Assembly (NCBI GenBank): GCA_016193565.1
Contig: JACPRY010000007.1
Span: forward strand, 1-35,467
DNA: 35,467 bases
Direction of reading: 5' to 3'
From: Armatimonadota bacterium
GTDB taxonomy: Bacteria; Sysuimicrobiota; Sysuimicrobiia; Sysuimicrobiales; Kaftiobacteriaceae
The translations under genes and the position numbers were made by a program. The first letter of the stretch is position 1. Every line of letters starts with the position of its first letter. The notes beneath the pieces were generated by a model. It was not told where the DNA came from. It ran no database searches and saw only the letters and a list, made by a program, of their open reading frames with translations. Of the stretch, positions 16,329 to 35,467 are shown piece after piece.

Positions 16329-16404
<76 letters not shown>

Positions 16405-35012: not shown

Positions 35013-35099
35013 GCGGAAGTGGCGGAACTGGCAGACGCGCAGGCCTCAGAAGCCTGTGGGGGAAACCCCGTGGGGGTTCAAATCCCTCCTTCCGCACCA
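35013..35099 (+). tRNA. tRNA-Leu (anticodon CAG), CCA encoded
   Basis: gcggaag/cttccgc acceptor; anticodon arm caggc-ctCAGaa-gcctg; long variable arm; T-loop ggttcaaatcc; 3' aCCA. Confidence 0.95.
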
Positions 35100-35352
35100 T
35101 GGTCTCAGGCTCATTTCTCTGGTGTATGGTGAATTGAACCCCCACGGGGGAGGGAGTGTGAGGGAGGGAATCCTCCCTCACGTGGTAGGGGGTGACATGG
35201 CTTCGCGCAAGCGAAGCCGTCCGAGGGGGCGAAGCCCCCTGAGGAGGAGCGAAGCCGCGACGTATGTTCCGCTGAGGGCCCCATGAGCTATAGGCTCATG
35301 GGGGGCGCGGCGAGCGACCCCGCGGCGGGTTCAAATCCCTCCTTCCGCACCA
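35074..35352. repeat. 26-bp direct repeat of the tRNA-Leu 3' end flanking a 227-bp noncoding insert
   Basis: gggttcaaatccctccttccgcacca at 35074-35099 and 35327-35352. Confidence 0.95.
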
Positions 35353-35356
35353 AAAT

Positions 35357-35391
35357 GAATGAGCCAGGATCCGGCAGATCCCGGCTCATTC
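35357..35391 (+). terminator. Intrinsic terminator-like hairpin after the second tRNA 3' copy
   Basis: gaatgagcc-a-ggatc-cggca-gatcc-c-ggctcattc followed by tctttcctcc. Confidence 0.7.
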
Positions 35392-35467
35392 TCTTTCCTC
35401 CTGCTCCGGTTCGCGGTCTGTCTCTCTGCCTGCCGTATCGCCGGTCAGTGGATGACGACTACGCTGT

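Follow-up and report, generated by a model that had tools for sequence, protein, structure and literature searches.

A probable RtT-like family of noncoding repeats at tRNA 3' ends in an Armatimonadota bacterium and its relatives

RtT repeats and the tRNA-Leu(CAG) locus

In Escherichia coli, the tyrV/tyrT locus carries three tandem 178-bp-spaced units that each end in 19 nucleotides (nt) of the tRNA-Tyr 3' end, starting from the T-loop, and that match the Rfam family RtT (RF00391) with 134 to 138 bits. The classical description of the tyrT repeat, a 178-bp sequence repeated 3.14 times, is an entry in the reference list of PMC8144298. In the tyrV locus of E. coli, taken as a named control, we observed that these units also contain an inverted copy of the tRNA T-arm (19/22 positions, a fit reached by 0 of 2,000 shuffles). 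To our knowledge, this inverted copy is not part of the curated RtT family definition. Here, we describe a 227-bp insert at the 3' end of a tRNA-Leu(CAG) gene in a 35,467-nt stretch of DNA from an Armatimonadota bacterium (GTDB phylum Sysuimicrobiota; contig JACPRY010000007.1, positions 1 to 35,467 of the forward strand), the whole of which is referred to below as the window. The insert is probably one unit of a noncoding, RtT-like, tRNA-tethered family of mobile repeats. Judged by sequence comparison, these repeats share the layout of RtT but belong to a separate sequence family.

Both RtT repeats and the tRNA-tethered units are noncoding, lie behind a tRNA, and hold a copy of the tRNA 3' end from the T-loop onward together with an inverted T-arm copy. 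However, no RtT (RF00391) covariance-model match was obtained in the window (E ≤ 5) or in seven element loci (E ≤ 1), and the similarity of the cores to RtT was not significant (z of ~2 at best). Since the layout is shared but the sequence family is not, we call the units RtT-built and do not file them as RtT. Other known RNA families were not matched at gathering level beyond tRNA and tmRNA, and within the insert nothing apart from tRNA was matched at that level; an sX4 match of 21.3 bits rests largely on the tRNA. In E. coli, one tRNA locus was examined, whereas the tRNA-tethered units occur at many tRNAs and at tmRNA with locally matched blocks. The E. coli unit showed no terminator palindrome pairing with CCA, no P2/P4 domain, and no 33- to 37-nt segments, features that are described below. 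With the units reported here, E. coli tyrT/RtT is no longer isolated but becomes one case of an architecture found at the tRNAs of 12 amino acids and at tmRNA in another phylum.

Likenesses extend to several other systems. The units resemble integrative elements of tRNA genes in their direct repeat starting at the T-loop, the intact tRNA, tandem accretion, and an insert-free orthologous site, but they are gene-free, 0.2 to 0.4 kb long, spread over many tRNA targets, and furnished with an inverted T-arm block, and no dedicated integrase was found for them in most carriers. Integron attC arrays are similar in that their tandem units are each joined through a long and imperfect palindrome that has an internal loop and two stems. 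In comparison, the palindrome of the units is built from the host tRNA, and there are no coding cassettes; no integron integrase was identified in the general count of PF00589 matches given below, which included no search aimed at IntI or R/L boxes. REP/RAYT and MITE-type repeats are likewise small, structured, noncoding, dispersed, and nonautonomous, but the units differ from them in being tied to tRNA 3' ends and in carrying a site-fitted inverted block, and the RAYT-type Y1 gene of the window is not adjacent. No description of such units was found in the open-access literature.

A dispersed family with locally matched inverted blocks

A preliminary description, made from the sequence of the window, had reported that the last 26 nt of tRNA-Leu(CAG) recur perfectly 253 bp downstream around a 227-bp noncoding insert, with a hairpin after the distal copy. 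The coordinates agree on each point (Table 1): the two copies are spaced 253 bp from start to start, the insert occupies positions 35100 to 35326 and holds no protein-like open reading frame (ORF), and the hairpin is present. The most telling feature of the locus was absent from that description. It is an inverted block of 16 nt (TTGAACCCCCACGGGG) that is a perfect complement of the strand running through the tRNA variable region and T-arm. The family-wide pattern described below excludes a chance origin of this block.

When the locus was used to search relatives, the insert was found at 93% identity next to tRNA-Leu(GAG) in genome G001 (same genus) and at 82 to 83% identity next to tRNA-Leu(CAG) in G004 and G006 (same family); His, Ala, Val, and tmRNA loci gave partial matches. 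Two covariance models, built on the 3' core (R1) and on the 5' part (R2), recovered units in 7/43 and 8/43 genomes of the phylum, respectively. No R2 units were found outside the phylum among ~340 genomes, for which the filters were stricter and few candidates were scored per genome. R2 gave 57 matches in the collected loci, two of them double-counted via overlapping loci, and 53 units were analyzed. An intact tRNA gene in the same orientation was predicted by ARAGORN immediately upstream of 37 of the 53, typically 50 to 60 nt before the model start. The host tRNAs represent 12 amino acids (Ala, Arg, Asn, Glu, Gly, His, Leu, Lys, Pro, Ser, Thr, and Val), several of them through two or more anticodons; other units lie behind tmRNA or are second or third in tandem arrays, which occur at Val, Ala, and tmRNA. 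Units are roughly 200 to 380 bp long (mostly 225 to 285 bp) and were found at 4 of 35 tRNA matches in G000 and at 10 of 42, plus tmRNA, in G006. The Lys, Leu-CAA, and tmRNA units are orthologous between G004 and G006. Searching for copies of the insert next to other tRNAs had been proposed in the preliminary description, and the core does recur beside many of them.

The inverted block tracks the local tRNA. Across the 37 adjacent tRNAs, the mean score of the block was 15.5 against its own tRNA and 7.8 against tRNAs of other identity, and the own-tRNA sum was reached by 0 of 20,000 permutations. Over a 14-nt span of the block, 491 of 518 cells are exact complements (94.8%; 27 mismatches). In all 29 units that have a distal copy (one of these copies being doubtful), the proximal tRNA is a better match for the block than that copy, and the block keeps a fixed position beside the T-loop motif whether the tRNA is of class I or class II. 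Cores, in contrast, are shared between unrelated tRNAs: those at Ser-CGA (G004) and Val-TAC (G004 and G006) are ~95% identical over 55 nt, with blocks only 42% identical, and between the Ser-CGA core of G004 and the Val-TAC core of G006, identity rises to as much as 0.99 across 102 aligned columns. The block does not follow core ancestry. Since the core is shared but the block is local, we infer, rather than observe, a mode of rewriting, either on arrival at a tRNA or through continual correction.

Several loci showed further arrangements of the units. At tRNA-Val(GAC) (L112/L034; G006:C43:150900-153713), a second unit carries a T-arm of the Val-CAC type and the corresponding inverted block, the pattern expected if an entire unit had passed from one isoacceptor gene to another. 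A tmRNA gene is followed by units at L035 (G006:C43:40500-41900) and L113 (G004:C133:4000-5300); at the former there is a tandem of three, and every one has a terminator palindrome and an inverted T-arm of its own. Locus L004 (G000:C33:37538-37597) is a remnant, a solo right end that carries another tRNA 3' end (CCCGGCACCA) and seems to be fused to an interrupted reading frame resembling an alpha-hydroxy-acid dehydrogenase. At L051 (G000:C51:4463-4642), the contig stops where the distal tRNA-Val copy should start, possibly at an assembly fork at the element boundary. Two tRNA-Ser(TGA) predictions in opposite orientations, one bearing a unit, lie within 1 kb of each other at L057 (G008:C260).

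Unit anatomy and predicted folding

A unit begins behind a tRNA ending in NCCA and runs through a palindromic terminator, a linker, the inverted block, and hairpin Pb. Next comes a further hairpin, a bare junction, or a hypervariable segment of 33 to 37 nt, followed by hairpin Pc and, in the longer class, by a helix P2 enclosing hairpin P4. The unit closes with GGTTC...CCA, identical to the host tRNA. This distal copy is 26/26 identical to the host in most units, and several truncated copies lack the distal end. The terminator palindrome measures 16 to 23 bp in 24 of 37 units, and its outer pairs are often formed by the last bases of the tRNA (CACCA/TGGTG, CTCCA/TGGAG, or CCCCA/TGGGG). Most other copies have a left palindrome arm, but that of the window unit is missing. 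The similarity between ggctcatttctct, just after the proximal repeat, and ggctcattctct, in the distal terminator, had earlier been taken as a hint of duplication; the similarity is present, but comparison with relatives identifies the proximal sequence as the right arm of the element's own palindrome.

Table 1. Features of the tRNA-Leu(CAG) locus in the window
Feature	Position (nt)	Strand	Remark
tRNA-Leu(CAG), intact host gene	35013-35099	+	ARAGORN; Rfam tRNA, 57.2 bits
Proximal 26-nt repeat, T-loop to CCA	35074-35099	+	Identity block opens with GGTTC family-wide
Terminator palindrome of the element, surviving right arm; ends in TGGTG, pairs with tRNA CACCA	35102-35124	+	
Linker, recurrent GGNGNAT type	35125-35133	+	
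Inverted block; perfect reverse complement that spans the variable region and T-arm 5' strand of tRNA-Leu and reaches into the T-loop	35134-35149	+	Inverted repeat I1
Core hairpin Pb (GTGAGGGAGG/CCTCCCTCAC)	35158-35181	+	
Core hairpin GGCTTCGC/GCGAAGCC	35199-35218	+	
Core hairpin Pc	35224-35240	+	
Core helix P2 (35254-35261 with 35304-35311) around hairpin P4 (35279-35303)	35254-35311	+	Compensatory changes in both
Right end of the element, weak mimic of the tRNA variable region	35312-35326	+	
Distal copy of the tRNA 3' end, 26/26 identical	35327-35352	+	
Terminator-like hairpin after the distal copy, 20-nt arms	35352-35396	+	Inverted repeat I2
Exact 141-bp overlap with the end of contig C78	35327-35467	+	Starts exactly at the distal repeat

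Helices P2 and P4 are conserved and backed by compensatory change. In an alignment of 10 sequences, 94% of helix cells are paired, with 15 double-change cells compared to 4.2 in shuffled alignments; an alignment of 29 sequences, which was fitted to the model, gave 64 compared to 17.8, and both counts ignore kinship among the sequences. Wobble pairs in P2 and P4 were G.T at 11 pair positions and A.C at 4, an excess from which kinship was not removed and which might suggest, on sequence grounds, a top-strand RNA. Over the whole alignment the corresponding numbers were 25 and 21, a count that is uninformative because Pc is misregistered.

The tRNA strand and block are predicted to fold into a large hairpin that is bulged and contains two stems plus an internal loop. 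At tRNA-Asn, the whole read-through stretch of tRNA, terminator, and block folded at -91.3 kcal/mol and the tRNA alone at -31.5 kcal/mol, values that indicate which pairing is preferred but do not make a fair energy contrast because the lengths differ. The model predicts that in a read-through transcript the block would capture the T-arm and disrupt the tRNA.

In the place of the window hairpin GGCTTCGC/GCGAAGCC, other subtypes have either the hypervariable segment or nothing. Hypervariable segments were observed in 23 units, between GGGGGCAGCGAGCG and CGCGAGCGATC, and 23/23 were 33 to 37 nt long; examples are L056 (G000:C91:8126-8159), L078 (G000:C33:31508-31543), and L060 (G000:C137:853-887). 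Two candidate explanations of these segments were rejected: as internal hairpins they had a mean z of 0.1, and as chromosomal copies 20 distinct queries matched just the units and their orthologues in 10 genomes of the family.

Mobility, template switching, and rival explanations

Within one genus, tRNA-Leu(CAG) carries a unit in G004 and G006 and lacks it in G008, where the tRNA CCA is followed directly by the flank seen after the distal copy in the other two (flanks 84 to 95% identical). This same-genus genome supplies the orthologous insert-free site that the preliminary description had proposed to look for among relatives. Together with copies of the core at many other tRNAs, it bears out the earlier idea of a small, noncoding, structured, and probably transcribable element at a tRNA 3' end. 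Given a filled and an empty site, and cores shared at unrelated tRNAs, the units move or exchange. The earlier suggestion that the insert is what remained of a deleted island did not hold, as the unit is complete and recurrent; the dispersed family in relatives rules out both this and a one-off duplication.

The question raised by these units is how a noncoding element gains a perfect inverted copy of whichever tRNA adjoins it, and the answer bears either on template switching as a builder of hairpins or on guided insertion in a new form. We favor the former. Units would enter at GGTTCRA, the universal T-loop sequence, through strand exchange or template switching and would need no coding gene of their own to do so. 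The inverted block would then be re-copied from the host tRNA and kept identical to it by foldback template switching, presumably because the tRNA strand and the block form a single long hairpin with bulges. For RNA hairpins, the creation and upkeep of arms by template switching has been documented (PMC8794818). The strong terminator ahead of the block probably renders the element tolerable, since the read-through hairpin would unfold the tRNA.

Several points weigh against this explanation. Simple template-switch correction should homogenize the linker between two tRNA-matched stems, yet the linker is unmatched: across the family, its match to the tRNA acceptor half is not tRNA specific (4.32 for the own tRNA versus 4.12 for others). 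The empty site of G008 could reflect precise deletion between the 26-nt repeats and not a site that was never filled. Neither an excised form nor an RNA or a mobility event of the units was observed, and all genomes analyzed are drafts. Both covariance models also include T-arm letters, which favors units near tRNAs, although neither adjacency nor sense orientation was imposed.

Resident machinery does not decide the mechanism. Reverse transcriptase (PF00078), the mark of a retroelement, was found in just 1/8 carriers, and Cas1 (PF01867), which CRISPR-type spacer acquisition would call for as a source of the 33- to 37-nt segments, was present in G003 and missing from the other seven; both were rejected as drivers, being mostly absent from the carriers. 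Tyrosine recombinase (PF00589) matches numbered two each in G000, G004, and G008, three in G006, and five each in G001 and G014. The two in G000, G004, and G008, drafts that are 87 to 93% complete, are probably XerC and XerD. The element itself holds no integrase within its 227 bp.

The main rival to template switching, although unlikely, is nucleic acid-guided insertion, in which the ~15-nt block would pair with the tRNA gene immediately 5' of the point of insertion in the T-loop, where a host or helper enzyme would insert the element. It would account for the better fit of the block to the target side, the proximal tRNA, than to the element's right end (29/29), for the fixed position of the block beside the universal T-loop motif in both tRNA classes, for a structured core with conserved helices, and for the lean of the P2 and P4 wobble pairs to a top-strand RNA, a count that ignores kinship. 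However, no enzyme was identified for it, reverse transcriptase being as rare as noted above, and a fixed guide alone does not explain a new guide on the same core. Less likely again is a miniature integrative element that a tyrosine recombinase mobilizes in trans at an ordinary T-loop attachment site, with the direct repeat as the att identity block and the inverted T-arm serving either as an additional arm site or within a folded, attC-like hairpin. A direct repeat from T-loop to CCA is a geometry known from integration into tRNA genes, and partial tRNA copies are left after integration (PMC9897764); the tandem arrays, the orthologous empty site, and the large bulged hairpin also agree with this scheme. 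The many distinct tRNAs used by the units do not, in that integrases are typically specific to one or a few tRNA genes, and the two PF00589 matches in G000, G004, and G008 are plausibly accounted for by XerC/XerD. Of the trans-mobilized minimal element proposed in the preliminary description, integrase action in trans is possible, but no dedicated integrase was found, with two PF00589 matches each in G000, G004, and G008.

We consider it quite improbable that the units form an old, mostly vertical, host-selected regulatory RNA or terminator module, in which, within read-through transcripts, the block and the tRNA fold compete, and the apparent spread stems from gene conversion between units. 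The strong terminator palindromes that take in the tRNA CCA end, the predicted disruption of the tRNA upon read-through, the orthology of the Lys, Leu-CAA, and tmRNA units, and the annotation of E. coli RttR as a small RNA are consistent with such a module, but the patchy occurrence within one genus and family and the truncated copies without a distal end are not. There is hardly any probability left for an assembly artifact or for a single event of partial tandem duplication that took in the tRNA end and the terminator. The weak similarity between proximal and distal terminator arms and the contig boundary at the distal repeat would fit, but both ideas are refuted by the family: the core recurs beside tRNA-Leu(GAG) in G001 and in G004 and G006 at the identities given above, further copies stand at other tRNAs in independent assemblies, and near-identical cores at unrelated tRNAs have locally rewritten ends.

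It is conceivable, if rather doubtful, that the unit is a gene-free self-retargeting element whose T-arm block serves as a guide for insertion at the T-loop and is rewritten at each new tRNA, with the 33- to 37-nt segment of many units as a second exchangeable module. If so, one noncoding unit could colonize many tRNA genes of one genome.

The contig overlap at the end of the window also touches on the distal repeat. An exact overlap of 141 bp is, we infer, what a de Bruijn assembler with k=141 leaves at a fork, and its start suggests a second path joining at the element boundary in the sampled population. Because the contig is unbroken at the proximal repeat, this falls short of proof that the second path is an empty site; if it were one, tRNA-Leu CCA would be joined straight to AAAATGAATGAGCC (C169/C78 junction). 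Elsewhere in the window, an ORF for a Y1/IS200-like transposase of the RAYT type (PF01797; 16510 to 17172) lies just downstream of tRNA-Arg(CCG) (16329 to 16404). Palindromes of GGTGCCAGGCACC were observed near this ORF, and the tRNA-Arg(CCG) gene is without a unit of the tRNA-tethered family.
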